Origin: an uncultured Verrucomicrobia subdivision 3 bacterium
GTDB taxonomy: Bacteria; Verrucomicrobiota; Verrucomicrobiia; Limisphaerales; UBA11358
Length of the DNA: 32,167 nucleotides
Assembly (NCBI GenBank): GCA_903835255.1
Contig: CAILMI010000028.1
Span: forward strand, 1-32,167
Direction: 5' to 3'
In this document: piece by piece, positions 1,432 through 29,567 of the stretch
Layout: each line of letters opens with the position of its first letter
How positions within the stretch are numbered: position 1 is the first letter of the stretch
Made by a program: the position numbers and the translations under genes
Notes under the pieces: model-generated
Told to the model about the DNA's origin: nothing
Databases searched by the model: none
Seen by the model: only the letters and a program-made list of their open reading frames with translations

Positions 1432-2010
1432 TTATTGTTTTTTCCGTGCTTTCAAGCACTCGTTCGGTGTCACAATAAAGTTCACGCTCACATCGTGCCC
1501 CTCCGTAGGGAGGCTTTCCAGCAACTGTCCCTGATAACAGATGCCGCATTTCACGCCGCTGACCTCTCCCAGCAGCCGGTCATAGAATCCGCGGCCGCGT
1601 CCCAGACGGTTTCCGAACCGGTCAAAGGCCAGACCCGGCACCAGCACCAGGTCCAATTGGTTCAATGGCATTGCCGCACACTGCGCCGCTGGTTCACGCA
1701 CGCCGAACTTTCCGGCGACTAGATCCGTCCCGATTTTTTGGATGACCCTGGCTCCATAGGCCTGGGTGGATGCATCGAAATAGGGCAGGGCGCAGACGGT
1801 GCCCAAGGCCAAGGAGCGTTCCAGCACCGGCCAGACATCCGGTTCATCCGGCAGGGGCGCAAAAAACAGAATGGCGCGCGCGCTGGGCAATTGCGCCTCC
1901 AGCCGCTCGCAAAGGCCGATGGATTCGACCGCCCGCACCGCCGGGGAGATGCGTTCCAATTGAGCGCGCATTTGAACGCGCAGGATATTTTTAATTTCTT
2001 CCATGTTCAT
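1432..2010 (-). CDS. fau: 5-formyltetrahydrofolate cyclo-ligase
   Basis: 192 aa, the usual length for this family. The enzyme uses ATP to close 5-formyl-THF to 5,10-methenyl-THF and returns stored folate to one-carbon metabolism. Family marks are visible: LVLVPGLAFDRFGNRLG then GRGRGFYDRLL (phosphate/folate-binding core), and later GHDVSVNFIVTPNE, the HD..V..I.T motif near the C-terminus. Its ATG overlaps the stop of rarA as ATGA, so translation is probably coupled. ATG at 2004 (MEEIK) is an alternative start. It converges on the small lipoprotein gene with only 6 nt between stops. In Escherichia coli the orthologue (ygfA) lies downstream of the 6S RNA gene, relevant to the RNA candidate upstream of rarA here. 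Confidence 0.93.
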   Translation of the reverse strand: MNMEEIKNILRVQMRAQLERISPAVRAVESIGLCERLEAQLPSARAILFFAPLPDEPDVWPVLERSLALGTVCALPYFDASTQAYGARVIQKIGTDLVAGKFGVREPAAQCAAMPLNQLDLVLVPGLAFDRFGNRLGRGRGFYDRLLGEVSGVKCGICYQGQLLESLPTEGHDVSVNFIVTPNECLKARKKQ

Positions 2011-3380
2011 TTTGATTCATCCCTCCGTAGCCGGGCAAATTCCGCGCGCCATTTTTCCACCCGCTCCTTGATTTTCTTCTCCACCCCCTGCTCGGTCGGT
2101 TCGTAGTAGCGCCGCTCGGCCCCGAGATAATCTTGGGCGACGAAATGGTCCCGCCCGTCGTGCGCATACTGGTAGCCGACCCCGTGCCCGAGTTGCGCGG
2201 CGGCCTGATAGCTCGCGTCCCGCAAGGGCGCCGGCACCGGCAGCGTCCGACCGGAACGGACGTCCTCCAGTGCGGCATCGATTGCACGATAGGCGCTGTT
2301 GCTCTTGTTGGCTGTGGCGAGGTAGATCGTCGCCTCTGCCAGGGGAATCCGCGCCTCCGGCCATCCGACAAACTCCGCCGCCGCCAGCGCGGCGTTGGCC
2401 AGCACCAGCGCCATCGGATCCGCCAGCCCCACATCTTCCGCCGCGCAAATCACGATGCGCCGGGCGATGAACCGCGGATCCTCTCCGGCATGGATCATCT
2501 TTGCCAGCCAGTACAGCGCGGCGTCTGGATCGCTCCCGCGCATGGATTTGATAAACGCAGAAATCGTGTCGTAATGGGCATCGCCGTCGCCATCGTAGAC
2601 CACCGCCTTCTTCTGGATGCTCTGCTCGGCCACTTCCAGCGTCAGGTGGAGAACCCCGTCCGGGCCCGGTTCCGTGGTCAGGGCGGCGATCTCCAGCGAA
2701 TTGAGCGCCTTGCGCGCATCCCCGTCGGAAAGGACGGCGAGGTGCCGCAAGGCGGCCTCCTCCGCCCGGATGCGGAGATGCCCCAGCCCGCGCTCCGAGT
2801 CGGCCAGGGCGCACTGCAGCAGGCGCATTAAATCCTCCGCGGTCAGCGGGCGCAGCTCGAAGATTTGAGAGCGCGACACCAGCGGCGAGTTGACGAAAAA
2901 GAATGGATTGTGCGTCGTCGCCCCGATCAGCTTGATGACGCCGCTTTCCACGTCCGGCAGCAGCACGTCCTGCTGCGCCTTGTTGAAGCGATGGATTTCG
3001 TCGATGAAGAGAATGGTGGCCCGCCCGGTGTTCTCCAAGCGGTTGGCCGCGGCGGACAGCACGCGGCGCATGTCGGCGACGTTGGATTCCACGCCGCTCA
3101 GGCGCTCGAATTGGCTGCGGGTCTGGCGGGCAATGATCTGGGCGAGCGAAGTTTTGCCGGTGCCGGGCGGGCCGTAAAAAATCACCGATTGGACGCGGTC
3201 GGCCTCGATGGCGCGGCGGAGCAGCTGACCCGGGGCCAGGATATGGGACTGTCCAGCATAGTCGTCGAGGCTGAGGGGGCGCATCCGCGCGGCGAGGGGC
3301 TGTCGATGTGGGATCGCTTCCGGGGACGGTCTGTCTTCCGGTGGGTCTACCGGTGCGGGGAACAGATCATCGCGTGCCAT
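2007..3380 (-). CDS. rarA: Replication-associated recombination protein A (MgsA/RarA AAA+ ATPase)
   Basis: 457 aa, full length. A cytoplasmic AAA+ ATPase of the clamp-loader clade that acts at stalled replication forks with SSB and single-stranded DNA ends. Visible motifs: Walker A GPPGTGKTSLAQ (about residues 69-80), Walker B ILFIDEIHRFNKAQQDVLLP, sensor 1 LIGATTHNPFF with an SRSQIFEL arginine region, then the helical lid and C-terminal tetramerisation part (WLAKMIHAGEDPRFIARRI, ending in the HDGRDHFVAQDYL region). The N-terminus has the LDDYAGQSHIL motif normal for the family. It overlaps fau by ATGA. A terminator and a candidate small RNA lie upstream on the same strand. Several overlapping ORFs in other frames are shadows of its GC-rich codons. 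Confidence 0.95.
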   Translation of the reverse strand: MARDDLFPAPVDPPEDRPSPEAIPHRQPLAARMRPLSLDDYAGQSHILAPGQLLRRAIEADRVQSVIFYGPPGTGKTSLAQIIARQTRSQFERLSGVESNVADMRRVLSAAANRLENTGRATILFIDEIHRFNKAQQDVLLPDVESGVIKLIGATTHNPFFFVNSPLVSRSQIFELRPLTAEDLMRLLQCALADSERGLGHLRIRAEEAALRHLAVLSDGDARKALNSLEIAALTTEPGPDGVLHLTLEVAEQSIQKKAVVYDGDGDAHYDTISAFIKSMRGSDPDAALYWLAKMIHAGEDPRFIARRIVICAAEDVGLADPMALVLANAALAAAEFVGWPEARIPLAEATIYLATANKSNSAYRAIDAALEDVRSGRTLPVPAPLRDASYQAAAQLGHGVGYQYAHDGRDHFVAQDYLGAERRYYEPTEQGVEKKIKERVEKWRAEFARLRRDESK

Positions 3381-3413
3381 GGAAATAGGCTAGCAGTTGA
3401 TGCGGCAGGCCCC

Positions 3414-3453
3414 AATAAAAAAGCCCGCACCGGAAATAATTCGGGCGCGGGCT
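3414..3453 (-). terminator. Intrinsic terminator between the RNA candidate and rarA
   Basis: On the minus strand, AGCCCGC (3453-3447) pairs with GCGGGCT (3428-3422). Additional inner C-G pairs surround an AATTATTT-type loop, and six T residues follow. It ends ~35 nt before the rarA start, so it should end a transcript that begins upstream of rarA. Confidence 0.8.
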
Positions 3454-3629
3454 GGGATTTCTTGGAAGAGGTTCCTGAGAGCCTCCCGTTTGAAATCGTT
3501 TGAAAGATCCCCCGCCATTGCCGTGTCTCACTAAACCTTAGAACATGTATTGCTACATGGGGAACTTGCCGTTTGGCTTTCGACTTCCAGTAAAGGCGTG
3601 TCGGCCACCGTCTGACTTGCTCCGGGATC
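3415..3629 (-). ncRNA. Candidate small RNA upstream of rarA (possibly 6S RNA)
   Basis: On the minus strand a potential RNA of ~215 nt runs from about 3629 to a strong intrinsic terminator. Its ends can close: GATCCC near 3629-3624 pairs with GGGATC near 3511-3506. An apical hairpin CATGTA-GCAA-TACATG (3559-3544) sits inside. TAAATA at 3639-3634 could be a -10 box placing the start near GATCCC, but no good -35 is seen. No credible ORF occupies the stretch. In other bacteria the 6S RNA gene lies next to fau (Enterobacteria) or rarA, both present here, so 6S RNA is the best guess. I did not recognise conserved 6S sequence, and it could be another regulatory RNA or a leader. Confidence 0.45.
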
Positions 3630-3911
3630 GTTTTATTTACGGTTCAAGGATTGCTTCGAATCACGCACAGGGCAGGGAAATTAAATTGTCCAAAGATCAG
3701 CCGGACTCACTCGTGCCAGGTGATTAAGGATTCGCTCCGTTTACAAAAAATCTCAAGATATTTTTTAATGCAAACTAGCGATTTTTTAGTTGAATCTCGG
3801 CGCGCGGCTGCGGCTGTCGAAAGACTTGGGGATCTTCCGGTGAAGTTTTTTGAGCCATAATAATTGATGCGGTCCCGTCGGGGCGGATCCGGTTGCGGGG
3901 CTGCATCGGAA
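3630..3911. other. Non-coding gap between dhaKL end and RNA candidate
   Basis: About 280 bp lie between the stop of the ketose kinase gene and the RNA candidate, both on the minus strand. I see no convincing ORF or strong terminator. The part at 3735-3790 is AT-rich and could hold a promoter for the RNA or rarA, but no clear -35/-10 pair stands out. Confidence 0.4.
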
Positions 3912-5633
3912 TCAGTCGCTGCCCGCGGCTGTGACAATCCGGGCGAATGAGACGGCGCCGGCATCGGGGTGTCCCCGGCTTTTCTCAGCGTGCGGGCGGG
4001 CGCGTCCGATCCGGGGCAGGAGCCGGGCGGTTTCCGCTGCCGCCTCCGTGGCGCAGCGGGCGGCCTCACTCCAGGCTCCGGCCAGATTCCGACCTTCAAC
4101 CACGGAACGGCGCAGTGCCTCGGCAAAAGGCGCCACCGCGTCAATCATTGTCTTGTCCCCGATCTGGGCCTTGCCCAGCCGCTGCATGGCGGTGAGCGCC
4201 GCGTCGACCGACCGACTGATCGCCATCGCATCCGTCGCAGGGGCTGCGGGAAGATTGGCGCCGGCGGCGGTGAGGGCGATGCCCCAGAGCGCCCCGGATG
4301 TCCCGCCGCCCTGTTCTGACCAGGCTTCCCCCGCCTCCAGCAGCAGTCGCTTGATGCCGCCTCCGGAAGCCGCCACCCGATCCGCCGCCGCCACGGCGCC
4401 GGCCACTCCCCGGGACATGCCGATTCCATGGTCGCCGTCGCCGGCCACTGCATCGAGTCGTCCGAGTTCCTGTTCTGATTCCGAAAGAGCCCTCTGCACA
4501 ACGCGAAGTCGTTCCAGCACCAGAGCCGCAGCGGCAGTGTCCGTGTCGCCGTTGATTTGGGCGGTAGGTGAGGCCAGCTCTGGAGCCTCAGAGGAGGGGC
4601 GGGCGTGGGCTGTATCGGGCTCGGCTTGGACCGATCCTCGGCGGTAGGCAGGGCTATCCGCCGGCGCCTTCCATAAGGCCTCGAGCTCGTCATCGACCCA
4701 GAACAGCGTGAGGGAAACTCCGGCCATCTCAAGGCTGGTCACCAGTTCGCCGCATTCGGTGTCGGCGATGGTGATTCCAGAAGCGGCCAGCCGTTCGTGG
4801 ACGGCCCCGAACAGGGTAAATAATTCCTCATATTTGAACCCGCCCAAGCCGTTGAGGATGACAACGGCGCGGCCGGAACGCGCATCCACCCCGGTCGGCA
4901 TCTCGGCTAGCAATCGTCCGACCAGAAGGTCCGCGAGCCCTGGAGCGTCGGGCACCGGCACCTCACTGATGCCGGGTTCGCCATGGATGCCCAGACCCAC
5001 CGCCATGCGCCCGGGCATCACGGTGAACAGCGGGGCAGGGGCTCCCGGCAAGGTGCACCCGCTGAAGGCCACGCCGAGCGAGCGGACGCGGTCATTGGCA
5101 TGCCGGGCCACCCGTTCCACGTCGTCGAGCGTCCGCCCGGCCTCGGCGGCGGCTCCCGCAATCTTAAACACTGCCAGAAGTCCGGCGATGCCCCGTCGCT
5201 TTTGAATCTGATCGGGCGGCGCGCTGGCGATATCATCTGTCACCGCCAGCAGGCGGACGTCCGCCCCCTCGCCCCGCAGCCGTTCCGCTCCCAGCCCAAA
5301 TTGCAGGACGTCCCCGGCGTAATTGCCGATCACGAGCATCATCCCGGCCTGGCGGTTGACGCTGTGGCAGACCCGGTGGACCTGGCCGGAGGAGGGCGAG
5401 GCGAAAATATTGCCGCAGACCGCCCCGGCAGCGAGACCGGGCCCGACCAGGCCGGCGAAGGAGGGATAATGGCCCGAGCCGCCGCCAATGACTAAAGTCA
5501 CCTGGCCCGTGGGAATGACGGTGGATCGCACCACGCCGCCAGAGACCGGCCGAACGTACCGGGAATGGGCGGCCGCGAAACCGGCGATGGCCTGGGCGGC
5601 AAACGTTTTAGAATCGGTGATCAGATGTGCCAT
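3912..5633 (-). CDS. Fused DhaK-DhaL ATP-dependent ketose (dihydroxyacetone-type) kinase
   Basis: 573 aa. The N-terminal Dak1/DhaK half (to about residue 330) binds the ketose. It has GGGSGHYPSFAG and, later, VGLGIHGEPG, whose His is the residue that covalently holds the substrate in DhaK. The C-terminal Dak2/DhaL half binds ATP-Mg through AGDGDHGIGMSRG, with GGTSGALWG and GDKTMIDAVAP following. The fusion phosphorylates dihydroxyacetone or a related short ketose with ATP, unlike the PTS-dependent split system. The usual GHEP is GHYP here, seen as I recall in relatives that act on other ketoses such as erythrulose, so the substrate is left open. A Pro/Ala/Ser-rich linker (about 330-355) joins the halves. 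The gene lies 80 bp behind an ABM-like gene on the same strand, probably in one operon. Confidence 0.9.
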   Translation of the reverse strand: MAHLITDSKTFAAQAIAGFAAAHSRYVRPVSGGVVRSTVIPTGQVTLVIGGGSGHYPSFAGLVGPGLAAGAVCGNIFASPSSGQVHRVCHSVNRQAGMMLVIGNYAGDVLQFGLGAERLRGEGADVRLLAVTDDIASAPPDQIQKRRGIAGLLAVFKIAGAAAEAGRTLDDVERVARHANDRVRSLGVAFSGCTLPGAPAPLFTVMPGRMAVGLGIHGEPGISEVPVPDAPGLADLLVGRLLAEMPTGVDARSGRAVVILNGLGGFKYEELFTLFGAVHERLAASGITIADTECGELVTSLEMAGVSLTLFWVDDELEALWKAPADSPAYRRGSVQAEPDTAHARPSSEAPELASPTAQINGDTDTAAAALVLERLRVVQRALSESEQELGRLDAVAGDGDHGIGMSRGVAGAVAAADRVAASGGGIKRLLLEAGEAWSEQGGGTSGALWGIALTAAGANLPAAPATDAMAISRSVDAALTAMQRLGKAQIGDKTMIDAVAPFAEALRRSVVEGRNLAGAWSEAARCATEAAAETARLLPRIGRARPHAEKSRGHPDAGAVSFARIVTAAGSD

Positions 5634-16701: not shown

Positions 16702-16926
16702 TTAAAAAGCCAATAAACATTGATGATTATGATTATCGGTTAGCTGGGGTGGTGGTGGGAGTTGAGAAAAAGCCTGTGAAATGGGTATTTTCTCAAAAAG
16801 CGTGAGGCTCAAAATCTGTAAAACAGTGTAAAGGCTGGCATTTAGATGCAGACGTTTTTTCAAAATGGCGACGAGCATGTAAACTGCGATGGCGGTCCAG
16901 ACTTGGGTGCGCACGGCGTTGGGCGA
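16702..16926 (-). mobile_element. C-terminal remnant of an IS4-family transposase
   Basis: The minus strand from about 16926 to the stop at 16702 reads SPNAVRTQVWTAIAVYMLV, AILKKRLHLNASLYTVLQI and LSLTLFEKIPISQAF, then a tail with NHNHQCLLAF. This is the well-known C-terminal end of IS4-type DDE transposases (VKTQIW..., KKRL.L.ASLYT.LQI.S.TLFEK.P). Only ~74 residues remain; the DDE catalytic core that should lie at higher coordinates is replaced by the giant-protein gene. The plus-strand ORF of that gene begins inside this remnant, antisense to it. So an IS once stood here and lost its 5' part in a deletion or rearrangement. Confidence 0.85.
16762..16791 (+). promoter_or_regulatory. Possible outward promoter in the IS remnant
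   Basis: TTGAGA (16762-16767), an 18-bp spacer and TATTTT (16786-16791) would drive transcription toward the giant-protein operon, about 50 nt upstream of its ATG. An inverted repeat TTGAGAAAA/TTTTCTCAA (16762-16770 and 16788-16796) overlaps it. Both could be chance in transposase coding DNA. Confidence 0.3.
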
Positions 16927-19900
16927 CGCGCTGGCGCGTGCTGCCTGTTCGCCTGCCTCATTTTCGCCATGCTGTTGAGCCGAGAGGCGAGCGCGCAAAC
17001 GATTTTACTTTCCGAGGGTTTCGAGGGGGCTTTCTCACCGTCATGGAGCATTGGCGACTCAAACCCAACCAACGGCTTGTTTTACTGGCGGGACGTGAAC
17101 AACTCCGTGGGGAGCGTCAGTGCTCATACCGGTTCTTGGAAAGGCTATTGCGCTGGCTACTCTAACGGCGTCGCGGTAAGCACGGCGACCTATGTCACCT
17201 ACATGAATGCTTACATGAGTCGGAGCATCAACTTCTCGGGCTACAGCGGCGCGAATCTTGGTTTCTGGTATAACATTCCGTCCATTGAGACCGGTTGGGA
17301 TTTCTTGCGGGTTTATGTGGATGGAACATTGGCTTGGAGCACATCGCTGTCCACGGCAGATTGGACATATCTCACCCTGCCGTTGACGGCTTATGTCGGC
17401 GGCGCCCACACGCTGCGGTTTGAATTCGATTCAGATTCCATCTACACCTACGAAGGGGCGTATCTCGACGACATTGTGGTGTGCGCAGCCAACCAGCCTT
17501 TCATAACCTCGCTGGAATCGTTGCAAAACGCCAACTACACCGGCTACGTTCTCAATTCAGATGCGACTTACGGGCGCAGCAACCTGCTGGCTCAGGCGAC
17601 TTTTAGTGTGGAGAATTTTACCGGGGCCGCCGCCAGTTATACGAACGTCCTCAGCTTCCGCCTGCTTAATGCCAGTTCTGGCGCGGCCCATCCGATTTAT
17701 AATCCGGCCAACATAACCACCAATGCCGGCTACACCTATAACGTCACCAATGTCCTCGCGCTGGCATCGGGAACGAACCAGACCGTGACCGTCTCTGCCC
17801 CGCTTCGCCCGGCGGCGTGGATGAGCCAGTTTACGAATTACTACCTCGAATGCCGGTTGCTGACGAACGGTGTGCTGGCGCAGACGCTTACGACCGCGCC
17901 GACGAATTATTACCATTTCACCAACACCGTCGCCGGTGATCCGGCCTATAATGCGCTACTCAATCTGACCAACAGCTCATGGTCGCGCACCTATGCCGTC
18001 CAAACCATCCCTGGCCAGGACTCGTTTCAAGTGGGGGTTGGCTATGAAATCCGGCGGTGGGATGAAGTCGGGTTGGGATCGGGGGTCACAAATATTCCGG
18101 TCGTCTTCAATTATACTCTCCGCGACGCTGCGGGCCATTCCATCCCGCTCGTCCGCAGTTCGAGCGTTTTCAACGACGCAGTCACTAATTACTATTCAAT
18201 TTTCTATTTCCTCCCCTACGTTCACACGGTCAATTATCCCGTGGTGGCGACTGTTTCCCACACGCTGAATGTCACGCCCGCCGCGCAACTGGATTCGGTT
18301 AACACAAATTATTACCTGACCGTCACGGTGTCCCACACTAATAATCCCGCCAGCGGGCAGGTGATTGCCGCCAACACGCGGGGCACCTCAACCAATGAAC
18401 TGCTTCATTTCAGCGGCAACCTGCTTTTTGGCAGCGTCGTCACCATTCTGGATTCTTTGGGCGTGGTGCCGCCGGTTAATCCGCCGATCGGGGGAGTCAT
18501 TCCCACCACGCTGAACACCGTCAGCGGTCATGTTGCGGGAATGCCGGGCTTTACTTTTGCTGGCGCGGGGCCGTTTGGCGTGAATCTCAAGACCAATGGC
18601 GATGCGGTGGTGACGGCGGGTTCGGTGGTTCTTTCCGCGCCGGTGCCGGATAATGACAGCCTCGCCCGGGTGAATTTCCGGCGCGGCCCCATCACGCTGT
18701 CTTCTTCGGGCGCATCCGCCGACTTGCGCGTGACTTTGCCCACCGGCCTTGGTTACCGCTATGACTTAAACAGTCTGGTGGTGCAGTCCGCCTTTACAGT
18801 CACGACTGTGCCGCTATCAGGAACACTCGAGCCGCTGGTGGATCAAACATTCATGCCTGGCATGATTTACGCCGTTGAGGAAAACAAACCAGTCTGGATG
18901 CAGACGGATCGCATCATCTGGCATGTGGCAGCCGGAACGTTCGACCTACCGCGTGTGGCCGGTTCGCCACCCATTTACGTCCGGGCCGAGGCTTACAACT
19001 ATTTGCAGTCCGTGGCGGCTATCCTGGTTGATCCGGCGATGGCGGACAAACGTTCCAATGACAAATACTGGATGGCCGTGAACGACACTGGCAGTGATGC
19101 CTTTGTTCGTCCCGATTCAGGTTCCAATGCCTTGCTCTCTGTAAAATTCCTGTTCGGCCCTGGCCAGTTCCGTTCACATTTTCCCTATGACACGCTGGTG
19201 AAGTGGCTGGGCGGCGGTAGCATGGACGTGACAGATGATTTGCCCAATGCCGGGGTGGCCAGCAGTCTCGCAGTTCCGGCGAATGTTGCCGTGAGCTATA
19301 CCCGCGACTGTCCGGACTGTGGTGGGGCTGGCGGCGGCAACGGTACTGCAACCATTGTTCCTGCTGGCGATTTCAGCTTTACCCGCGATGGCGGGTTGGT
19401 GGCCTATGGGCCGACCACGGCGGCGGTGAATTTGCGATGGGGCTACATTGGCTCGCCGACGTTCAACTACGCGCAACAGGCTCTGGCTTTCAGCGAGGCG
19501 GGTTTTCACATGCCGGGCGTGTTTTTGCGCGGCGATCAAAATTCACTCATCGAACCGCAACGGCCTACCACCATTCTTTACTCCGGCGTGATGGCCACGA
19601 ATGTGACCCAAATTGAGCGGCCAATGAAGGCAGGTTACAAGCAGGGCCTGGCGGATTATGGCGGCTTGAATTTCCGCTGTTTCGTTGATGCCGCGCATGG
19701 CGGGCGCAGCACCATTGCGGGCAAGACCAATATTAACTGGCAACTGGACTACCGCTCGAAATACTACATCCGTCCCGGCGGCGTCAGTGGTATTCACGAG
19801 GCTGTTACCAACAGCTTCCCCGCCAGCTTGACGCTGTGGGGATACAGCTTCAATTTTGAAAACTACGAGCTTTCCTACCTTGACAGTCTGAACAAGGATT

Positions 19901-22809
19901 CCGTGACGGATGGTTCCATTACACTGCCGTCACCGGCGAATTTCACGCAGGACTTTGAGCACATGACTTTCTCCTGTCTGGGCGCGCCGGAAGATGCGGA
20001 TCTGCCCCGCGCCAATCCTTTCAAGATGATGGAATATTGGACGGCGGATTTCAAAACGCTGTCCATTTCGTTCAATAGCCCGGACAGTTGCGATGTCACC
20101 GCCGGCTACCTCGTGCTGGGCATTGAAGGCTACGCGTCGCATGTGGACAAGCCGCTTTTTGGTTCCATCGGTTTCTTCAGCAGCGGCGATCAGATTCCGC
20201 CATCCTTTGGCCTGTCAGGAGTGACTTCGCGGCTGAAACTGCCCACCGTTATCACCTTGGATGGACCGAGCGATAGCACCTATTCGTTTTCGCCGGTGCA
20301 AGACGCTTATTATAACACCTGGAGCAATTCGCCGCCGTCGCCGACCGCTGGCTGGATCAATATTTTCGGCAAAATGGACGTGCCGTTCTTCGAGGACATG
20401 CAGTTGCAACTCCAGACGAGTTGCCGCACCAACGGCGTGGTGGCCAGCAACGCGGTCATCTATCTCTCCGGCGGCTGGCCCCGCGCCGGCACCACGAACG
20501 CGAACTACGGCTGGCTTGATTCATTTAATCGCACGCCGTTCGAGACTAATTTGTTTGATGCGAAAAACCTTGGCTGGCCGGGCACCGGTGGCGGACTGAC
20601 CATTGCCAATTACCGCGATAACTCGGCGGGCGAGCAATATCATCCGCGCGCACAACGGCTCTGGCTGGGCATCATTGACTTTGATTATCCGCTGACGTGG
20701 AACAGTTCGCTCACCTCCTTCAAGTCCTGGCAGCAAATTCAGGACAAGCTGCTGATCGTGGACGTGCAGCACGAGATCAAATACATGGACGGCACGCGGG
20801 CGGAAATTGATTTCGGCGCGCAATACGACGGGCTGCCGCAGATCAGCATTGCCAATCTCGCGTTCAACGCCATCGACGAGACCACGGGCGTGGGAAAGGC
20901 ATTGGTCGAGTCTGCCACGCAGCCGGTAAAGGACGTGTTGAGCGCCGGCCTCGACGAGATGGATAAATTAATCAACACCGAGATGAGCAAGCTGATGGAC
21001 GGGGTGTTTGACCGGACGGTGGATCCCATCATTGACCAGTTCTATCTTCAAATTTCCAATGAATGGAGCGGCCTAACGGTTTCGCAGCGGTTGCAATTCG
21101 TGCAGAATGTCCAGACCAACACGCTCAATTTCTTCGTCGGCACCGGCCCGCTCAGTCCGTCGCTCACACCACTCACTTCGGCTTTGCAGGATTTGGGCAA
21201 TGCGGCTTCATCGGCAAGTAATCTGTTAGGCCAGATTCGCGGCTATCTTCGCGACGCCACCAATGCCATCAACTCCGTGGTTGGCACAATCAACACGACC
21301 ACGAACGGCGTCGCGATTGGGGGCGAAGTTACCGGCCTCATTTGCAAGGTGGGCGGTGAACGCCCCGTCGTGCCCCAGTTGATGGGGTCGCTCGTCCAGC
21401 AAATCGCGCCGCAGTTCATTGACGCGCTGATCGGTCCCACCGTCAGCAATCTGTTGCAGGAAGTGGAGCCGCAGCTCACCGAGATTTCCAGCGCGCTTAC
21501 CCAGACGCGGGATGCCATCACGCAGGTAGATTCCCAACTCGCCGCCGCCGGGGAATTCACCGCCGAGATCAACAACGCGCTGGCTGCTGCCAATTCGCAG
21601 CTTTCCAATGTTTCGGCGCAGGTCTCCATTTCCGTGACGCAGTATTTCGCTGGCTTTGACTTCCACATTGACGATCCGTTCCAGAGCGTTAGCGCGGCGG
21701 ATTTGAAGCAGATGATCCGGCAGAAAATCGAGGATGAATTTTTTGCCACCGAGGTTGCCGCGAAGATTCAGACCGCCGTACGCCAGCGGGTATATGACTT
21801 GAATGCGGCGATGACCACGCAGATTGACACTGTCTTCCAGCAGGTGAACGACATGTTGCGCAGCCTCATCAGCCAGTCGTTGGCCGAAGTGGATAACTCG
21901 ATAAACAAATGTCTGGGTGACGTCAGCGATGTCATGGGCGCGGGCCAACTGAACGGTCACGCTTTGATCAACGGCGATTCGCTCAAGGAACTGCGCATTG
22001 ACGGCCACTTCCAGTTCAAGGCACCCGACAACCTAGAGCTGAATGCTTTTCTGCAAATCAAGGAGCTGGATTCAGACGGCAGCGCGGGCTGCTCCAGCAC
22101 GGCGGGGCCGTTCACGGAAGTCACCATCGGTGCGACCGAGGTGCCGATGGATTGGATCAGCCCGGATCTCACGGCCAACTTGCAGGCCAAGTTCACCTTC
22201 GACGGGACGACTCCGCTTCCGGTCAACTTGGCGGGGGAATTGGAACTCGTGGGCGACTTAAACTTCGAGGCCTTCACGCTGCACGATTTGGCGGCGGCGC
22301 TCGCGTTCGGGAAATACGAAAACTATCTTGCGCTCAAAGGCGGTGTGAAATTCAACGGCTACGATTTCTCCGGGGCGGTTTTCTTCGGCAAGACTTGCAG
22401 CCTCGATCCGCTCTTGCTGATTGATCCCGAAGTGACGGGCGTGCTCGGCAATCCGCCCTTCACCGGGGCGTATTGCTACGCGCAAGGCTGGCTGCCCGTG
22501 TCGGAAATGGTGCTGGGCGTTCCGGCCTCGTGCATGTTCACCATCTCGGCGGGTGTCGGGGCCGGCGCGTTCTATTTTGCCGAAGGCCCGACCTACGGCG
22601 GTAAAATGTTCTTGGGCGTCTCCGGTGAACTGCTCTGCATCGTGAGCATCACCGGCGACATCACGATGATCGGCGTCAAACAGGGCGATGACCTACGGTT
22701 CAACGGCCACGGCCATTTTTCAGCCGAAGTCGGCTCCTGCCCGTTCTGTTTCTCGGTGAGTAAAAGCGTGAACATTAAATACATCAACAAATCTTGGAAG
22801 TTCGACTAA
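16846..22809 (+). CDS. Giant exported multidomain protein, 5' end fused to IS remnant
   Basis: 1987 aa. Residues 1-27 are antisense transposase. Residues ~28-50 (RRAGACCLFACLIFAMLL, then SREASA) look like a signal peptide missing its native start. Residues ~52-215 are a MAM or choice-of-anchor-like beta sandwich (ILLSEGFEGAFSPSW, GYSGANLGFWYN, EGAYLDDIVV). Residues ~215-1340 are Asn/Thr-rich, beta-rich and unrecognised, with a CPDCGG pair near 825. Residues ~1345-1700 form a long amphipathic helical segment (TEISSALTQTRDAITQVDSQ and similar). Residues ~1700-1987 return to beta-rich repeats (LALKGGVKFNGYDFSGAVFF) with CPFCFS near the end. Function is unknown; a surface or outer-membrane-associated structural protein is inferred. 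AAAGG lies 11 nt before the ATG. The next gene starts 9 nt after its stop. Confidence 0.75.
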   Translation: MQTFFQNGDEHVNCDGGPDLGAHGVGRRAGACCLFACLIFAMLLSREASAQTILLSEGFEGAFSPSWSIGDSNPTNGLFYWRDVNNSVGSVSAHTGSWKGYCAGYSNGVAVSTATYVTYMNAYMSRSINFSGYSGANLGFWYNIPSIETGWDFLRVYVDGTLAWSTSLSTADWTYLTLPLTAYVGGAHTLRFEFDSDSIYTYEGAYLDDIVVCAANQPFITSLESLQNANYTGYVLNSDATYGRSNLLAQATFSVENFTGAAASYTNVLSFRLLNASSGAAHPIYNPANITTNAGYTYNVTNVLALASGTNQTVTVSAPLRPAAWMSQFTNYYLECRLLTNGVLAQTLTTAPTNYYHFTNTVAGDPAYNALLNLTNSSWSRTYAVQTIPGQDSFQVGVGYEIRRWDEVGLGSGVTNIPVVFNYTLRDAAGHSIPLVRSSSVFNDAVTNYYSIFYFLPYVHTVNYPVVATVSHTLNVTPAAQLDSVNTNYYLTVTVSHTNNPASGQVIAANTRGTSTNELLHFSGNLLFGSVVTILDSLGVVPPVNPPIGGVIPTTLNTVSGHVAGMPGFTFAGAGPFGVNLKTNGDAVVTAGSVVLSAPVPDNDSLARVNFRRGPITLSSSGASADLRVTLPTGLGYRYDLNSLVVQSAFTVTTVPLSGTLEPLVDQTFMPGMIYAVEENKPVWMQTDRIIWHVAAGTFDLPRVAGSPPIYVRAEAYNYLQSVAAILVDPAMADKRSNDKYWMAVNDTGSDAFVRPDSGSNALLSVKFLFGPGQFRSHFPYDTLVKWLGGGSMDVTDDLPNAGVASSLAVPANVAVSYTRDCPDCGGAGGGNGTATIVPAGDFSFTRDGGLVAYGPTTAAVNLRWGYIGSPTFNYAQQALAFSEAGFHMPGVFLRGDQNSLIEPQRPTTILYSGVMATNVTQIERPMKAGYKQGLADYGGLNFRCFVDAAHGGRSTIAGKTNINWQLDYRSKYYIRPGGVSGIHEAVTNSFPASLTLWGYSFNFENYELSYLDSLNKDSVTDGSITLPSPANFTQDFEHMTFSCLGAPEDADLPRANPFKMMEYWTADFKTLSISFNSPDSCDVTAGYLVLGIEGYASHVDKPLFGSIGFFSSGDQIPPSFGLSGVTSRLKLPTVITLDGPSDSTYSFSPVQDAYYNTWSNSPPSPTAGWINIFGKMDVPFFEDMQLQLQTSCRTNGVVASNAVIYLSGGWPRAGTTNANYGWLDSFNRTPFETNLFDAKNLGWPGTGGGLTIANYRDNSAGEQYHPRAQRLWLGIIDFDYPLTWNSSLTSFKSWQQIQDKLLIVDVQHEIKYMDGTRAEIDFGAQYDGLPQISIANLAFNAIDETTGVGKALVESATQPVKDVLSAGLDEMDKLINTEMSKLMDGVFDRTVDPIIDQFYLQISNEWSGLTVSQRLQFVQNVQTNTLNFFVGTGPLSPSLTPLTSALQDLGNAASSASNLLGQIRGYLRDATNAINSVVGTINTTTNGVAIGGEVTGLICKVGGERPVVPQLMGSLVQQIAPQFIDALIGPTVSNLLQEVEPQLTEISSALTQTRDAITQVDSQLAAAGEFTAEINNALAAANSQLSNVSAQVSISVTQYFAGFDFHIDDPFQSVSAADLKQMIRQKIEDEFFATEVAAKIQTAVRQRVYDLNAAMTTQIDTVFQQVNDMLRSLISQSLAEVDNSINKCLGDVSDVMGAGQLNGHALINGDSLKELRIDGHFQFKAPDNLELNAFLQIKELDSDGSAGCSSTAGPFTEVTIGATEVPMDWISPDLTANLQAKFTFDGTTPLPVNLAGELELVGDLNFEAFTLHDLAAALAFGKYENYLALKGGVKFNGYDFSGAVFFGKTCSLDPLLLIDPEVTGVLGNPPFTGAYCYAQGWLPVSEMVLGVPASCMFTISAGVGAGAFYFAEGPTYGGKMFLGVSGELLCIVSITGDITMIGVKQGDDLRFNGHGHFSAEVGSCPFCFSVSKSVNIKYINKSWKFD

Positions 22810-22818
22810 AAGTCTGGC

Positions 22819-25800
22819 ATGAAAAAGTTTTGTTCCATTTTTCAAGTTTTTGCCGTGGCGCTGCTGGTGGGTGGCTCTGGGTTCGGCCTGGTTTCAGCCC
22901 GTGCCCAGAGCGGGGTGGGGGATATCGTCTATACCGTGGGCACAACCGTGACTGACAGCCATAATCGCAATTGGGCTTACATTCTCTGGCAGGCGGTTGA
23001 CCCCGCGCTGACCAGCAACCGGGTTTTCGCCGTCTATGCCAAGCCGGGCAGCGCCACCAACGCTGCTCCTTACACGCGGCTTTCGTTGGTCAGGGTGCAA
23101 ACCGATGCCCGCGTCATCGAACCGCTGCTCCAGCGCGCGGAAAATCTTGGCGACAATTTGGTGAAGTTGCAGGAAGACCTGTCGCAGATGTTTGGCAGCT
23201 TCATTCCGTCCACCGCCATCAGCCGAGCGGATCAGCTTTCCGCCGTCATACGCGGTTCGCTTGGCAACTCGCAGAATTATGGCGACCTGATTTTGTTGGG
23301 TCGCAATCATGCCGGCATCAACCTCTGTCTCGGGTTCGCTGATGCGGAAATGATTGGGGCGGGCTTAACGACTTTTGAGATACGCGCAATTGACCCGTTG
23401 ACCGAGCAGGATCAGGCCGTCATTGGCCGCGTCACGGTTGAAGCGGGCAATCCTACCGTCCTGCCCGAACCCGGCCCGCCCGTGCTGGTGCCGGAGACGA
23501 GTCCGATGGGGGATTTGAACCTGAAATTTCGCTGGGGCACGCCCGACAATCTGCGTCGTCTCTCGCTCATGCAATTCGGCTACGATCTCTACCGCGTTGC
23601 CAAGCCCTATGCCAATGGCAAAGGCTGGAACACGACGAGCCGTCCGCTGTTGACCACGCTTCAGGGGCTGGCCGTCACTAATCCCGCCGTGGTGCGGCGT
23701 GTGAACCGCGTGCCCATCACGCCGCCCACGCTGCTCAATACTCCTGATGCCGCCAACCTCGCTGCTGACCCGAAGACTTCATTCATCATGGACGATGACG
23801 GGCGCGGGCGTCCCGGTTACATCAATTACGGTTTCACCAACAGCAGCCAGTTTTACTACTACGTTGCTGCGCGTGATGTGCTTGGCCGCGCGGGCATTCT
23901 TTCCACCGGATTGCTCGCCACCGTTTGCGACCGGATGCCGCCGTTGCCGGTGAAAGGCGTCACGGTGGTGAACGATTACCAATACAACACGATGACGCAC
24001 ACGTCGTCCCAGGCTTTGAGAATCAATTGGAAGCAAAACTTGTTTACCAATGATGTGGTGGCAAACTATTGGATTTACCGCTGGACGAATGTGGCGCAGA
24101 TGAACTCCCTGTCCGGCAACATCGGCAACAACCTGATTGGAATCGTCACTCATCACCCTGGCGTATCGACGAATACATTTTTGGACAGCGGGTCCGGTTC
24201 GCCTAGCGCGTTGAGCGCTTACGGTAAAACTTTCTGGTATACGGTTCGCGCGGCGGATATGGGTGCCTGTGGTCCCAATCTTTCCGGCAATAGCGGGCCA
24301 GCCTATGGTGTGCTGCGCCAGCGCGTGGGGCCGGCGGCGGGAACCGGCAACATTCAAATAAATTGTCTGCGGCCTTATGTGAATGTGCATGGCATCACTT
24401 ACCAGTCGGGTATTTATGATCCCACGAACTTCGACCTTTATGTGCATTGCCAGCGCCTCGATCCGCGCATCGTGTGGGCGGAGTTCATCGGCATCGCCAC
24501 CTACACGGTCGCCGCCACAACGGGGCCAAACGTGACGATAGTTACCAACGATCTGGGGCGGCTCTATTATCCAGGCGCACCGAGCGTCGGCACGACATGG
24601 ACTCCGGCTCGCACGCTCAATGGCAAAATGGTGGAGTCCGTCAAATTTGATGTCGGGTGCCGGGCTGCGCTCGCCAATGGGAAAATTTCCAGTTACGCCA
24701 TTGCCTCGCTGAATTCGTTTGGCTCCGGACAAAAGGCGGATGTTGCCTTTGACGCCACCGTCCAAAGTCTGCGCACCACCGCTAATGACCGGCAGAATCC
24801 CGAATGTGTGGAACATGATCCGGGCGGTGGTGGCGGCGGGGTTTCCGGCACAAACGATATCTGTGTTGAAATCACTCCTACAACCGGCAGCAAGGAATAC
24901 CGCATCTACCGGCGTGTGGAGGCCGGCCCGCTCACGCTGCTGGCGTCCGGTCCCGTGACTAACGGTATGACAACCGTGAAGGAATGCGATGGTGCGATGC
25001 CCGCGAACGGCGGTTCGCTGTGCTACTACGTCCAGTTGCTTGACGAAAACGGCAATCCCAGCCCGATGGCCAATCTCGGTTGCGTGGATGTCGCCCCCAA
25101 CGCGCCGTTGCCCGTGCCCATGCTCTCGAAAATTGTTTCTTCCGGTGACGAAAGCAGCCCCGGCATGAAGCTCATGTGGTTTTGTCCGCCCTATGGCGTG
25201 GAGCGGTTTGAGGTGCTCGTAGCCGCCCTGCCCAGCAAGCCGAATACGAACGGCACCCAGTTCTGTTCACAACTGTCTAGCACGGGCGCCCCGCCGGTGA
25301 CGCTGGTTTACACCAACGGCGGCACGAACCTGAGCCTGCCGTTCTATTCGTTCGTCTCGCCGAAAGTCGGGCCCGGTTTTGGCAACAACGGCGCGGCTTT
25401 TCAGGTGATTCCTAATGTCGAGATTGGCCATACCTACTACATCACGGTTCGCGCGCTCGGCAAAAATGGCAATGCGGGCAACTACGAAAATTTTGAAGAG
25501 TTCCTCTGGTCGGCCACCAATGCGCCGTCGCCCCAGGTGCCGTGGCCCGCCCGCCCGCTGCCGTCGGCCACCAACGCCAATTTTGCGGCCTTGGTTTTCT
25601 TTGTTTCACCTGCGGTCACAAATCCGCCGCTTCTGCGAACGCCCGACTTCACCGGCAACGCGGTTTGGATCGGGGTAAAGGGATTCACGCGGGCGCAAAT
25701 TTATAAGGACGAAAAAAACCGATCTGCCACCACCGTGAGCGAAGGCTTCGATCCCATGAGTGCACTGGGAACCAACGTGCTGGGTGAGTCCATCATGCCG

Positions 25801-26118
25801 TTCGCACTCTACCGTTATCAGGTGGCCAACGCTAATTTCCCGTCCGTGTCCGGGGATACGATCCAGGTTTCGCCGCTGATGGAAAATATCGCCTATGAGC
25901 TGGACGTGACGCCGGGCGTGAGCACCAACACCGTTCTTCACGATCCGTTCTTAACCACAACCACGACCACGGGCGGCGGTGTCACTTATCTCTGGCTATG
26001 GGCCAAGGACACGCAGCCCATCATTTCGGGGGCGCGCTACAAATACATTCTCGTCCGGTTCAAATCGAACCATGAGATTGACCTGCTTGTTCCCTCCAAC
26101 GAGGTGGATGTGCCATGA
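22819..26118 (+). CDS. Large exported protein with fibronectin-III-like modules
   Basis: 1099 aa. Signal peptide MKKFCSIFQVFAVALLVGGS followed by a VSARA-QSG cleavage site. Residues ~35-210 form a first unrecognised beta/alpha domain (TVGTTVTDSHNRNWAYILW, then VRVQTDARVIEPLLQRAENL). The rest is a series of fibronectin-III-like modules: LNLKFRWGTPDNL...YDLYRV, PPLPVKGVTVVNDYQ...RINWKQ...YWIYRW, the KEYRIYRRVEAG module, and MKLMWFCPPYGVERFEVLVA. GGGGGVSGTND near residue 675 is a linker. Such modules bind proteins or sugars outside the cell. No anchor, sorting signal or enzyme motif is seen at the C-terminus. It lies between the other two giant genes and overlaps the next one as ATGA, so all three should be made together. 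Its specific partner is inferred to be one of those proteins. Confidence 0.8.
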   Translation: MKKFCSIFQVFAVALLVGGSGFGLVSARAQSGVGDIVYTVGTTVTDSHNRNWAYILWQAVDPALTSNRVFAVYAKPGSATNAAPYTRLSLVRVQTDARVIEPLLQRAENLGDNLVKLQEDLSQMFGSFIPSTAISRADQLSAVIRGSLGNSQNYGDLILLGRNHAGINLCLGFADAEMIGAGLTTFEIRAIDPLTEQDQAVIGRVTVEAGNPTVLPEPGPPVLVPETSPMGDLNLKFRWGTPDNLRRLSLMQFGYDLYRVAKPYANGKGWNTTSRPLLTTLQGLAVTNPAVVRRVNRVPITPPTLLNTPDAANLAADPKTSFIMDDDGRGRPGYINYGFTNSSQFYYYVAARDVLGRAGILSTGLLATVCDRMPPLPVKGVTVVNDYQYNTMTHTSSQALRINWKQNLFTNDVVANYWIYRWTNVAQMNSLSGNIGNNLIGIVTHHPGVSTNTFLDSGSGSPSALSAYGKTFWYTVRAADMGACGPNLSGNSGPAYGVLRQRVGPAAGTGNIQINCLRPYVNVHGITYQSGIYDPTNFDLYVHCQRLDPRIVWAEFIGIATYTVAATTGPNVTIVTNDLGRLYYPGAPSVGTTWTPARTLNGKMVESVKFDVGCRAALANGKISSYAIASLNSFGSGQKADVAFDATVQSLRTTANDRQNPECVEHDPGGGGGGVSGTNDICVEITPTTGSKEYRIYRRVEAGPLTLLASGPVTNGMTTVKECDGAMPANGGSLCYYVQLLDENGNPSPMANLGCVDVAPNAPLPVPMLSKIVSSGDESSPGMKLMWFCPPYGVERFEVLVAALPSKPNTNGTQFCSQLSSTGAPPVTLVYTNGGTNLSLPFYSFVSPKVGPGFGNNGAAFQVIPNVEIGHTYYITVRALGKNGNAGNYENFEEFLWSATNAPSPQVPWPARPLPSATNANFAALVFFVSPAVTNPPLLRTPDFTGNAVWIGVKGFTRAQIYKDEKNRSATTVSEGFDPMSALGTNVLGESIMPFALYRYQVANANFPSVSGDTIQVSPLMENIAYELDVTPGVSTNTVLHDPFLTTTTTTGGGVTYLWLWAKDTQPIISGARYKYILVRFKSNHEIDLLVPSNEVDVP

Positions 26119-29100
26119 GAAAATTATTTCAATCACTCCTAGTGCTGATCGTGTTTGGGGTTGGCGTGGCCAGCGCATTCGTTTCCGAAAACGCCTGGGA
26201 AATGCAGTCGGAGGGCGATTTCAACGGTGATGCCCGCCGCGACCTCATCATCGTGGATAAAGCCACGGGGAATTATCGCCTCGGCTACCGACAGGCAGCC
26301 GGAAATTTTGTCTGGGCATCCACCCGCGCCAGTGGCATTGCGCCGGCCACGGGATTGGGCATTGGCAAACTCAACTCACTTACGTTTGACTCGCTGGCCC
26401 TCACTGGCCCGACCGCCAACCGGGTGAATGTGTTTGACGCCAACAATACCGGCGCTGCCGGCTTGCCCGTGAGTTTCTATCCACCGTCACTCGGTCCAAA
26501 CCTGGTTGTGGCGATAGACATTGGCGGCGCTGGCACCAACGCCTACGACGATTTCTATGTTGCCAGTGAGTTCAATGGCACGTCGGCGTTTCGCGAAACC
26601 TTGGTGCGCAATCCCGGCACCACGAACCGCACGACGCTGGTGGACAGCCTGATTAATTATCAGCGCGAACGGGGCAATCCGGTTTTGCTCCACACCAACC
26701 GCCCGCCGCGGCTGGGCGTGTTTGAGCGTAATGTGGGGGTGGGTTATGACATTTTCAGCTTCTATGATTTGGCCGGCGGCACAGCCGTGTATGTCACGGC
26801 CGTGGCTACCTCGCGTTCGCCGCAGCCTTACGAGTTTGTCAGCGGCCAGTTGATCGGCACCAATCCTTACACGCAGGTGCTGTTCTATCCGCCGACCGGC
26901 TACTATTTTTTTGAATATCAGGTCAGCGAGCCGTCATCTGGGGTTTACGCGCTGACTTACACCAATTCATTCGTGCTGACGAACTACATAGATCGGCTGT
27001 TTCTACTAAACGGTGCGGGAACCAACAAGCTGCTCATCCTCGATACGAACGGTGTGACCGCTGTTATTTATGATTTCAACGGTGTGACCGCGCCCGTGGC
27101 CGTCCAGTCGTTGACCGCTGCGGCGGGCGAACATTTCACCGGCGCTGGCGTGTTGGGCGATGGCGGTTTTGTGGCGTATTCGGCTCCCATCGGGCAGAAC
27201 TTGTCATCGCGGTTCAACCACTGGCAATGGAATGGCTCGGCCTTCACCAATCGCGGCTCCGGCGATCTGCCGCGAATTTCCAGCTACAGCGGCTCCGGCA
27301 ACGTCATGCAATTCCAGTTCGAGCCGTTCGTGACAAATAATCCCGTGCTGCTCCGCCTGAACAACGCCGGGGATTGGTCCGGTTCGCCTGCTTACTCGGC
27401 TTCGCCGGGCAATATCTCGGTGAAGACGGAGATGTTCTTTAGCAGCACGCAGGGACTGGTGAATCCAACGCCCGTGGTGCTGGGCAAGGCGCACCCGCTC
27501 GCCGCCTTTGGCCTCGCCAACCAATACAGCAACATGATTTCGCTGTTCAGCTTCACGCCGCCCGCCGGCGATAAAATCAGTGACGTGACCATTTCGCCTT
27601 CGCCGGGCCTTTATGCGACAGCGGTGCAATTGAAATTCACAGCGGCCAACACCAGCGACTCGATTTTCTTCCGCGCAGGGTCGGGGGCGTGGATCACTTG
27701 GAGCAACGGCTTGGTGTGTTATGTTTTTACGAATGCCACGATTCAGTATTACGGACGACCTTCCGGCGGCGGGGCAAATTCAGCCATCAAGTCGGCTGGC
27801 TACACCTTCACCCAAGGCCCGTCCACATTGGACTCCGATGACGACGGCGTGCCGGACTACGTTGAGATTGCCAGAGGACTTGATCCGAACGGCGGGCGCG
27901 ACAGCGACGGCGATGGTTATTCCGATCTGGAAGAGTTGATTCACAACATGAATCCGCTTTCAACGAACAGTGTCCCGACCAATTGGCCGCACATGGATGA
28001 CCGGGCTGTGTTCAACCTCAAGGTGAAGCCCTATCCGTGGGACGGCTTCTCGAATGTGGTTTCGCTCTGCGCCACCGGCATCACGCTGCGCGCTCACGAT
28101 TTTCAAGGCAGCCTGTTGAGCGTTGGCACAGTGGTATCAAATTCCTGGCCGCTGGGGTGTTTGAGCAACATCACTGTTGTCACGGAAAATCGCCTCGTGG
28201 TTCAAGCGACGGATTTGCATTACGGCATCCTGACCAGCAATGCCGACAAGACCGTGGGGCGTGAAATGATCGGCCTAACGGCGGTGCCGCCGCTGACTGT
28301 GCCTGCTGTGACCAATGTTTACGGCGGCGGAACCCTCGCCGCCGAGGCGCAGCTTTGGATTAATTCCGCCTCAAATACCCTCAACAATCTGCCGCGCGCC
28401 ACGCTGACCAACAACCTCACCGTGAACAGCACGTTGACCGCGCTGTTGTTCGAGTTAAAAACCGCGCAGTTGCTCGGCTCGCGCTCGAACCTCTGGTGGA
28501 CGAACATGACAATCTTCCCGTTCCGCGTCAGCGACACAGGTCGCACCAATCCGCCGCAGTCGCTTCTGCTCTCGCTCGAACAGGCGACCAACAGTTTTCC
28601 CGCCTACAAACTCCAGACGGTCTTCGCCGGCATCAGCAACCAGGTGGAAAACTCGGTCAGTTCCAATATCACGAACCTCCGCGCCGTGACGCGCGACATT
28701 TACCGCATCAACAGCCTGCTCAACAATGCCAACCCGGCAACATTCGTTTCGCCCGTCGACGAAATCCGCTGGTTCCTGTGGCATGGCGGATTTGATTCCA
28801 ACTACCTTGCCTGGTCCGCCACCAGCAACCAGTTCGCGTCCGCCACGACCGGCGCCATCGCCATTCTGGACAGCGTCGCCGCGCGCCCAATCACCAACGT
28901 CTCGCTCGTCGTGCGCCAGGACACGCTCGTCGGCTCCTGCCGCATTCTCGACATGGCGGGCGGCGGTGCGACGTTTGCCCTCCAGGATCCCACCGGCCTG
29001 CCGTTTGGCTTCCCGAACAACTTCCAGCTCCTGCCGGGTTCCGTGGTGCAGGTTGCCGGCTACACCGATGTCACGAACACCGCCTGCGCCTACCCCGCCA

Positions 29101-29567
29101 TCGAAGTCACCTCTGTTCTGCTGAACACCGTCCTGCTCGCCACCGACGCCGACGGTAACGGCAACCTGCTCGTGGATTCATGGGAGAAGAAATTCTTCGG
29201 CTACGTTGGCGTCACCAGTCCGTTCCTCGATTCGGATGGCGACGGTTACAGCGACTTGCAGGAAATGCTCGACGGTTCCGATCCCCGCGATTTATACGGC
29301 ATCCCGACCGCGCCGGTCGCCAACTTCCAGTGCCCTACGCTTTCGCTGTCCGCCAGCGGCGGGTTTGTGGAACTGCACTTCCTCTGGCCCACGGCCTACA
29401 TCGGCAAATTTAACTTCGGCGTGCGCCACACCTCGGACCTGGGCGTGCCCTTCGTGAGCCTAGTGGCGACCGCTCCCACGCACGTCGCTGGCGACGAATT
29501 CAAGATGACATCCCCCGTTCCCGGCACCTCGACGCATTTCTATTTCCTGACCGTCACGATGCCGTAG
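26115..29567 (+). CDS. Large exported protein with FG-GAP-like region and Ca-binding loops
   Basis: 1150 aa. Signal peptide MRKLFQSLLVLIVFGVGVAS followed by A-FVSE. Residues ~33-480 resemble FG-GAP/VCBS propeller blades: EGDFNGDARRDLIIVDKATG is a typical blade with a DxNxDxxxD loop. Residues ~572-616 hold thrombospondin-3/EF-like loops: DSDDDGVPDYVEIARGLDPN and DSDGDGYSDLEELIHNMNPL. A second set at ~1008-1062 reads DADGNGNLLVDSWEKKFFG and DSDGDGYSDLQEMLDGSDP, a style common in Verrucomicrobia surface proteins. Between them is Asn/Thr-rich beta sequence; the last ~85 residues form a small beta domain. No PEP-CTERM or other anchor is visible. Calcium binding is expected from the loops. ATG overlaps the stop of the fibronectin-III-like gene, so translation is coupled. 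Function is unknown. Confidence 0.82.
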   Translation: MRKLFQSLLVLIVFGVGVASAFVSENAWEMQSEGDFNGDARRDLIIVDKATGNYRLGYRQAAGNFVWASTRASGIAPATGLGIGKLNSLTFDSLALTGPTANRVNVFDANNTGAAGLPVSFYPPSLGPNLVVAIDIGGAGTNAYDDFYVASEFNGTSAFRETLVRNPGTTNRTTLVDSLINYQRERGNPVLLHTNRPPRLGVFERNVGVGYDIFSFYDLAGGTAVYVTAVATSRSPQPYEFVSGQLIGTNPYTQVLFYPPTGYYFFEYQVSEPSSGVYALTYTNSFVLTNYIDRLFLLNGAGTNKLLILDTNGVTAVIYDFNGVTAPVAVQSLTAAAGEHFTGAGVLGDGGFVAYSAPIGQNLSSRFNHWQWNGSAFTNRGSGDLPRISSYSGSGNVMQFQFEPFVTNNPVLLRLNNAGDWSGSPAYSASPGNISVKTEMFFSSTQGLVNPTPVVLGKAHPLAAFGLANQYSNMISLFSFTPPAGDKISDVTISPSPGLYATAVQLKFTAANTSDSIFFRAGSGAWITWSNGLVCYVFTNATIQYYGRPSGGGANSAIKSAGYTFTQGPSTLDSDDDGVPDYVEIARGLDPNGGRDSDGDGYSDLEELIHNMNPLSTNSVPTNWPHMDDRAVFNLKVKPYPWDGFSNVVSLCATGITLRAHDFQGSLLSVGTVVSNSWPLGCLSNITVVTENRLVVQATDLHYGILTSNADKTVGREMIGLTAVPPLTVPAVTNVYGGGTLAAEAQLWINSASNTLNNLPRATLTNNLTVNSTLTALLFELKTAQLLGSRSNLWWTNMTIFPFRVSDTGRTNPPQSLLLSLEQATNSFPAYKLQTVFAGISNQVENSVSSNITNLRAVTRDIYRINSLLNNANPATFVSPVDEIRWFLWHGGFDSNYLAWSATSNQFASATTGAIAILDSVAARPITNVSLVVRQDTLVGSCRILDMAGGGATFALQDPTGLPFGFPNNFQLLPGSVVQVAGYTDVTNTACAYPAIEVTSVLLNTVLLATDADGNGNLLVDSWEKKFFGYVGVTSPFLDSDGDGYSDLQEMLDGSDPRDLYGIPTAPVANFQCPTLSLSASGGFVELHFLWPTAYIGKFNFGVRHTSDLGVPFVSLVATAPTHVAGDEFKMTSPVPGTSTHFYFLTVTMP

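Follow-up and report, generated by a model that had tools for sequence, protein, structure and literature searches.

6S RNA holds back RNA polymerase, and the polymerase that it restrains is the one that makes rRNA. In rRNA leaders, boxA is the antitermination site for NusB-S10. In E. coli, the fau gene follows the 6S gene ssrS. According to the consulted excerpts of PMC8414754, rarA flanks 6S RNA in lactic acid bacteria, where most species also have a terminator downstream. For boxA, the excerpts of PMC5725501 describe how NusB-S10 binds the site in rRNA that is still being transcribed; it is proposed to associate there with the elongating polymerase, conferring resistance to Rho. The gamma-proteobacterial boxA is given in those excerpts as GYTCTTTAANA. 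Two uses of boxA outside rRNA have been described, one in the suhB mRNA (excerpts of PMC5725501) and one in long CRISPR arrays (second-hand, through excerpts of PMC7862264). By its own statement in the part consulted, the boxA survey of gamma-proteobacteria left non-coding RNAs out (PMC5725501). In the literature searched, with subscription papers mostly outside its scope, we found no published link between boxA and 6S RNA, and no work on 6S RNA in Verrucomicrobia was apparent.

Here we describe a 6S locus from a bacterium of the Verrucomicrobiota, close to subdivision 3. It lies in the window, by which we mean the whole 32,167-nt stretch of DNA analysed and to which all coordinates refer. The RNA and its surroundings downstream are as follows.

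3505-3681, minus strand: predicted 6S RNA body (SsrS, RF00013; 49.8 bits by cmscan, with covariation)
3417-3451, minus strand: intrinsic terminator at the 6S/rarA boundary (folding z -4.5)
2007-3380, minus strand: rarA (mgsA), the conserved downstream neighbour (Pfam MgsA_C, 232.5 bits, 3.4e-69)
1432-2010, minus strand: fau, 5-formyltetrahydrofolate cyclo-ligase (Pfam PF01812, 120.9 bits, 7.7e-35)

An earlier note, made from the letters of the window, had proposed a terminated small RNA at 3415-3629, possibly 6S RNA, and had suggested a scan with the Rfam covariance models. In that scan, the sole match above the gathering score in the window was 6S RNA RF00013 at 3505-3681 on the minus strand, aligned over model positions 1-187 of 187 with 49.8 bits against a cut-off of 46.4 (E 2.9e-7); no other family exceeded its cut-off. 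The 5' end of the RNA is at about 3681, 52 nt further out than the note had placed it. Likewise, a search of 2900-4200 at a loose threshold gave no family near its own cut-off besides 6S, and the Trp_leader, anti-hemB and suhB RNA matches by the terminator, all far below cut-off, were taken as chance. In agreement with the note, no ORF of at least 80 aa occurs on the minus strand in 3505-3681. RF00013 matches just once in the whole genome. Among 59 genomes (own counted), 51 have a match with E <= 0.001 and 50 one above the cut-off, 50 of the 58 relatives being positive, and in a phylum sample the family is found in 193 of 387 genomes (own counted).

Could the locus encode some other rod-like small RNA? 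Its score is merely 3.4 bits above the RF00013 cut-off, and the body by itself folds no better than usual (z -1.16), so that the case for 6S rests on homology and covariation. Yet the match is full-length, best scores reach 79.7 bits among relatives and 100.7 in the phylum sample, the fold covaries, and rarA and fau stand beside it. We find a non-6S rod hardly credible, and 3505-3681 is almost certainly a 6S RNA gene, as the earlier note had suspected.

The conserved fold contains two further elements.

3638-3649, minus strand: predicted pRNA template CCUUGAACCGUA, on the 5' side of the central bubble
3544-3559, minus strand: hairpin CAUGUA-GCAA-UACAUG, on the 3' side of the central bubble

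We collected 54 6S places, i.e. that of the window and 53 in relatives, three of which have two each. For the fold, 30 sequences were aligned, omitting near-copies, most other-family loci and cut-off loci. The resulting 39 pairs are paired in 97.8% of cells, and 15 of them changed on both sides compared with 7.1 in shuffles, which is the covariation that the earlier note had asked to see; slid out of register, every version was below 44% paired. The closing stem joins 3671-3677 with 3510-3516. The end-to-end closure GATCCC/GGGATC that had been suggested in its place is paired in 62.8% of cells over 30 relatives and pairs better when slid 1 or 2 columns 5'-ward (72.2 and 69.4%). Its covariation score exceeds that of shuffles (0.212 vs 0.151); being paired less than its slid versions, it was rejected as the closing stem. 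The 6-bp hairpin CATGTA-GCAA-TACATG, formerly described as apical, is real and lies at 3544-3559, with 5 pairs counted, 98.7% of cells paired and 3 pairs changed on both sides. In a 31-sequence alignment, 11 of the 12 positions of CCUUGAACCGUA are invariant and the remaining one is A or G.

The locus has in common with RF00013 6S RNAs generally the full-length match, a central bubble whose 5' strand hardly varies, the closing and terminal stems, the single copy and the adjoining rarA and fau. The Pfam matches to MgsA_C (232.5 bits) and 5-FTHF cyclo-ligase (120.9 bits) establish both genes downstream, where the earlier note had read them, and its statement that they adjoin 6S genes in other bacteria agrees with ssrS-fau in E. 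coli and, in the excerpts of PMC8414754, with rarA in lactic acid bacteria. The arrangement differs in that rarA is upstream of 6S in lactic acid bacteria (excerpts of PMC8414754) and downstream in the window. In 40 of the 54 places, rarA starts at most 250 nt from the 6S end (median 101 nt), and some of the others are near contig ends. The upstream neighbour of 6S, on the same strand, is a protein with Dak1 and Dak2 domains. Before rarA, at 3385-3395, the window reads TGCTAGCCTAT, and TGCTAAC is found there in several relatives; rarA may have a promoter here with this as its extended -10. Elsewhere in the window, three very large adjacent ORFs of 1987, 1099 and 1150 aa occupy 16846-29567 on the plus strand, and their first residues resemble signal peptides.

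The RNA is separated from rarA by a minus-strand intrinsic terminator whose stem (3451-3423) is followed by a run of T beginning at 3422. The terminator ends about 36 nt short of the start codon of rarA, the ATG at 3380. The segment 3411-3460 folds with -25 kcal/mol (z -4.5), and none of 200 shuffles was equally good. The terminator had been called perfect: its presence, strength and position are upheld, and its perfection is not, as the fold has one mismatch. A simple terminator scan gave no entry for the 3451-3423 stem, probably owing to the loop limit of the scan. By a crude fold test, 32 of the 54 places have a separate hairpin-plus-T terminator, and by a similarly crude test 24 of the 54 pass with the closing stem as terminator; others, including the window, have a separate one. 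At L005, L006, L009 and L010, among others, a U-tract (GGGGTTTTTT) directly follows the closing stem of 6S on its 3' strand, and in such loci the closing stem itself may be the terminator. Five close relatives (L004, L016, L019, L021, L028) have an extra hairpin of the GATTGCCGG...CCGGCAATC type between 6S and the terminator, which might be a processing site.

To this point, the RNA is an additional member of a known family, and its locus, in a group that has received little study, is a typical one for 6S. What sets it apart lies upstream, in an element that the earlier note had not mentioned.

3686-3699, minus strand: boxA-like element TGATCTTTGGACAA, which matches the genome's own 16S leader boxA and whose core GATCTTTG recurs at 49 of the 52 loci counted in the order
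3682-3721, minus strand: putative 5' leader of a 6S precursor, spanning the roughly 40 nt that part the predicted start from the body
3728-3756, minus strand: candidate promoter with -35 TTGAGA (3756-3751), a 17-nt spacer and a weak -10 GAATCC (3733-3728), suggested by TTGAG enrichment upstream of 6S

The core GATCTTTG at 3698-3691 is immediately 5' of the 6S body, and the window shows CTGATCTTTGGACAATTTA, then ATTTCCCTG, at this point. When the sequences upstream of 6S were read across the 54 places, the word GNTCTTT kept recurring, which we take to be the boxA core. The word is short, was noticed upstream of 6S first and counted afterwards, and has its core in common with rRNA leaders and the literature. 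Of the 52 loci counted in the order, 49 have it no more than 100 nt upstream of 6S (2.6 in shuffles), namely 31 of 32 in the genus (dinucleotide shuffles 1.6) and 18 of 20 in other families (1.0). These counts cover the 52 places with at least 40 nt upstream, G022 and G030 being omitted, so that 32 of the 34 genus places were usable. The three loci without the core are that of G036, the truncated second copy in G026, and that of G055, where GCTCATT has one mismatch. In other classes of the phylum, the word precedes 32 of 51 loci (dinucleotide shuffles 2.0; absent from 19), and in sister orders of the same class 3 of 39 (2.2); these loci stem from 90 of the 193 genomes with a match, 30 best-scoring and 60 hand-picked, mostly one per genus. 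All 6S loci counted are related and hence non-independent.

Controls covered position, strand and gene. First, the word occurs in 0 of 51 loci in the 100 nt still further upstream and in 3 of 54 in the 100 nt downstream of 6S. At the 6S 3' end itself it appears in 12 of 34 genus places and 0 of 20 in other families; this was taken for a decayed U-tract, and a second boxA is not claimed there. Second, the antisense word is found upstream of 6S in 1 of 32 loci in the genus, 2 of 20 in other families, 2 of 51 in other classes and 0 of 39 in sister orders. Third, among the 30 best-scoring loci of each control RNA in relatives (out of 47, 47 and 56 genomes above cut-off), it precedes RNase P RNA in 0, tmRNA in 0 and SRP RNA in 1, one SRP RNA locus having just 51 nt upstream. 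The idea that boxA marks all stable RNA genes was rejected on these counts. The window is also unlike E. coli ssrS, the sole comparison outside the phylum, which has no boxA in the 140 nt upstream, and unlike the sister orders with their 3 in 39.

A set of named loci gave a similar picture. It held 80 rarA loci, 57 of them with a 6S match, one partial, by a model (R1) that includes the window; R1 scores are therefore circular for the window, and R1, which also gave weak antisense matches as expected of a rod-like RNA, was used only for placing 6S in named loci. After omission of three loci with little upstream and of the partial match L101, GNTCTTT was present in 41 of 53 and absent in 12. Seven of these named loci match first-set loci exactly over 90 nt; without them, the count is 34 of 46.

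The element also agrees with boxA in the genome's own rRNA operon. The 16S leader boxA is GCTCTTTGAAAA, with TGCAGCTCTTTGAAAATTGAATTGTG about 150 nt upstream of 16S, and the 16S-23S spacer has a further boxA, GTTCTTTG; the core GATCTTTG agrees with the latter and with GCTCTTTG of the leader. Aligned on the core, the 49 6S leaders of the order give the consensus TGnTCTTTGAAAAA, to be compared with GCTCTTTGAAAATTG in the own 16S leader, with the GCTCTTTGAAAATT-like words in the 16S leaders of the group and with the gamma-proteobacterial GYTCTTTAANA. Among the 15 readable 16S leaders of the group (own counted), 14 have GNTCTTTG and 1 has GCTCATTG. The genome encodes NusB-family frames. The matches are at G000:C12:154009-154458 and G000:C5:17963-18328, in open frames that, with 679 and 442 residues, are longer than NusB alone; one of them may be an RNA methyltransferase with a NusB domain. 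In rRNA operons the promoter is further upstream, and the 6S leader differs from the rRNA leader in being much shorter, in driving a 177-nt regulatory RNA and in having no enriched boxB-like hairpin. Hairpins of the boxB type were seen by eye in rRNA leaders and some 6S leaders, and 5' of the 6S boxA they were not enriched (mean z -0.27, -0.85 and -0.26 vs 0.1, -0.69 and -0.52 in windows further up).

Is the element read in RNA or in DNA? The gene could be an ordinary 6S gene, transcribed from the 6S 5' end, with GNTCTTT a promoter or activator element at the DNA level. In close relatives the motif is mostly 9-14 nt before the 6S body, beside an AT-rich -10-like sequence, as such an element might be, and 1 of 52 order loci passes even a loose test for a promoter abutting 6S. 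Several observations speak against it. The gap from core to 6S spans 9 to 61 nt across 51 places of the order, with GNTCATT counted as well, and 20 to 62 nt across 32 places of other classes, a variation that fits an RNA element, unlike a promoter box. The A-rich extension agrees with the rRNA boxA. Furthermore, TTGAG boxes are located further upstream: among the 52 order loci with 150 nt upstream, 43 have TTGAG within that distance of 6S (mononucleotide shuffles mean 7.9, max 14), its best spacer (16-18 allowed) being 17 in 35 of the 43, often in the order TTGAGA-17-GATnnT. The choice of -10 is rough, as two impossible negative leader lengths show, and the -10 box of the window is itself poor.

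The loci without boxA complete this comparison. By eye, eight of the boxA-less named loci (L072, L075, L076, L081, L088, L092, L096, L104) have TTGAG-17-TAnnnT 3-4 nt before 6S. By a fixed rule, an abutting promoter was scored where TAnnnT ended 2-9 nt before 6S and TTGACA was matched upstream in at least 4 of 6 positions. So defined, it is present in 20 of 39 sister-order loci and 8 of 12 named boxA-less loci, as opposed to 0 of 41 named loci with boxA, 1 of 52 in the order and 2 of 51 in other classes. At 4-9 nt, the corresponding numbers are 17, 5, 0, 0 and 2. A DNA-level element appears distinctly unlikely to us; the plain reading of these sequences is that a leader with boxA would lie between the promoter and 6S, and would be missing in some lineages.

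The presence of boxA follows descent. On a RarA tree of 54 rows it requires 2 changes, vs 11.1 with shuffled labels (0 of 500 as low). We infer loss rather than gain, with the caveat that the tree is midpoint-rooted and its bootstrap had not stabilised. Four rows titled Akkermansia muciniphila (L037, L038, L060, L068) group by RarA with rows titled subdivision 3 or Pedosphaera, and these titles look wrong. As to second 6S copies, L113 (G001:C25) and L115 (G002:C145) are full-length with boxA and terminator, whereas L117 (G026:C317) is a truncated match of 96 nt without boxA. In the 3.8 kb that follow L113 there is no rarA, and L115 is near a contig end; second copies in draft genomes may be contamination.

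The locus belongs to the 6S family, has the conserved fold, and carries on its sense strand a boxA-like core that matches the boxA of its own rRNA leader. Probably, the boxA before 6S is a working Nus-factor site. The best explanation overall, to which we give a probability of roughly three in four, is a boxA-led 6S precursor that would be transcribed like a small rRNA unit under antitermination and then trimmed. Transcription would start about 40 nt upstream of mature 6S, at the TTGAGA-17-GATnnT-like promoter, placing boxA within the first nucleotides of the precursor. NusB-S10 binding there would turn RNA polymerase into an rRNA-type antiterminating complex, by which the untranslated 6S RNA could be completed and folded, spared Rho cut-off. 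The leader would be trimmed afterwards to the mature 5' end, and the intrinsic terminator would part 6S from rarA. As in other bacteria, the 6S rod would then mimic an open promoter on the housekeeping holoenzyme, from which pRNA synthesis would free it.

The need for antitermination is not obvious in an RNA of only 177 nt. Alternatively, boxA might serve processing or timing, NusB-S10 recruiting rRNA maturation factors or coupling 6S to free S10 as a reading of ribosome supply. The identical conserved motif and a leader that requires trimming would suit this role, and an RNA so short would scarcely need protection from Rho. In E. coli, the suhB boxA represses translation, a use other than rRNA antitermination (excerpts of PMC5725501). 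The present evidence fits plain antitermination equally, and we regard processing or timing as rather unlikely. The possible gains from boxA would be Rho protection, help in folding or an output of 6S coupled to the NusB-S10 supply.

We found no prior description, in the literature searched, of a boxA-led 6S gene, which is conserved across the order and present in other classes of the phylum. The sharing of boxA with rRNA genes hints at a polymerase brake that would be made by the ribosome-making machinery. Tentatively, and with some doubt, this might extend to much of Verrucomicrobiota: the rRNA antitermination machinery might build 6S RNA, whose output would follow the NusB-S10 supply and tie the brake to ribosome synthesis, some lineages having dropped the leader to start at the 6S 5' end. 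If true, the use of boxA would be extended to a small regulatory RNA, a class outside the gamma-proteobacterial survey as described in the excerpts of PMC5725501, and one could test directly whether polymerase inhibition is linked to the supply of ribosomes. If the 6S gene does use the rRNA antitermination signal, both arms of growth control would share NusB-S10.
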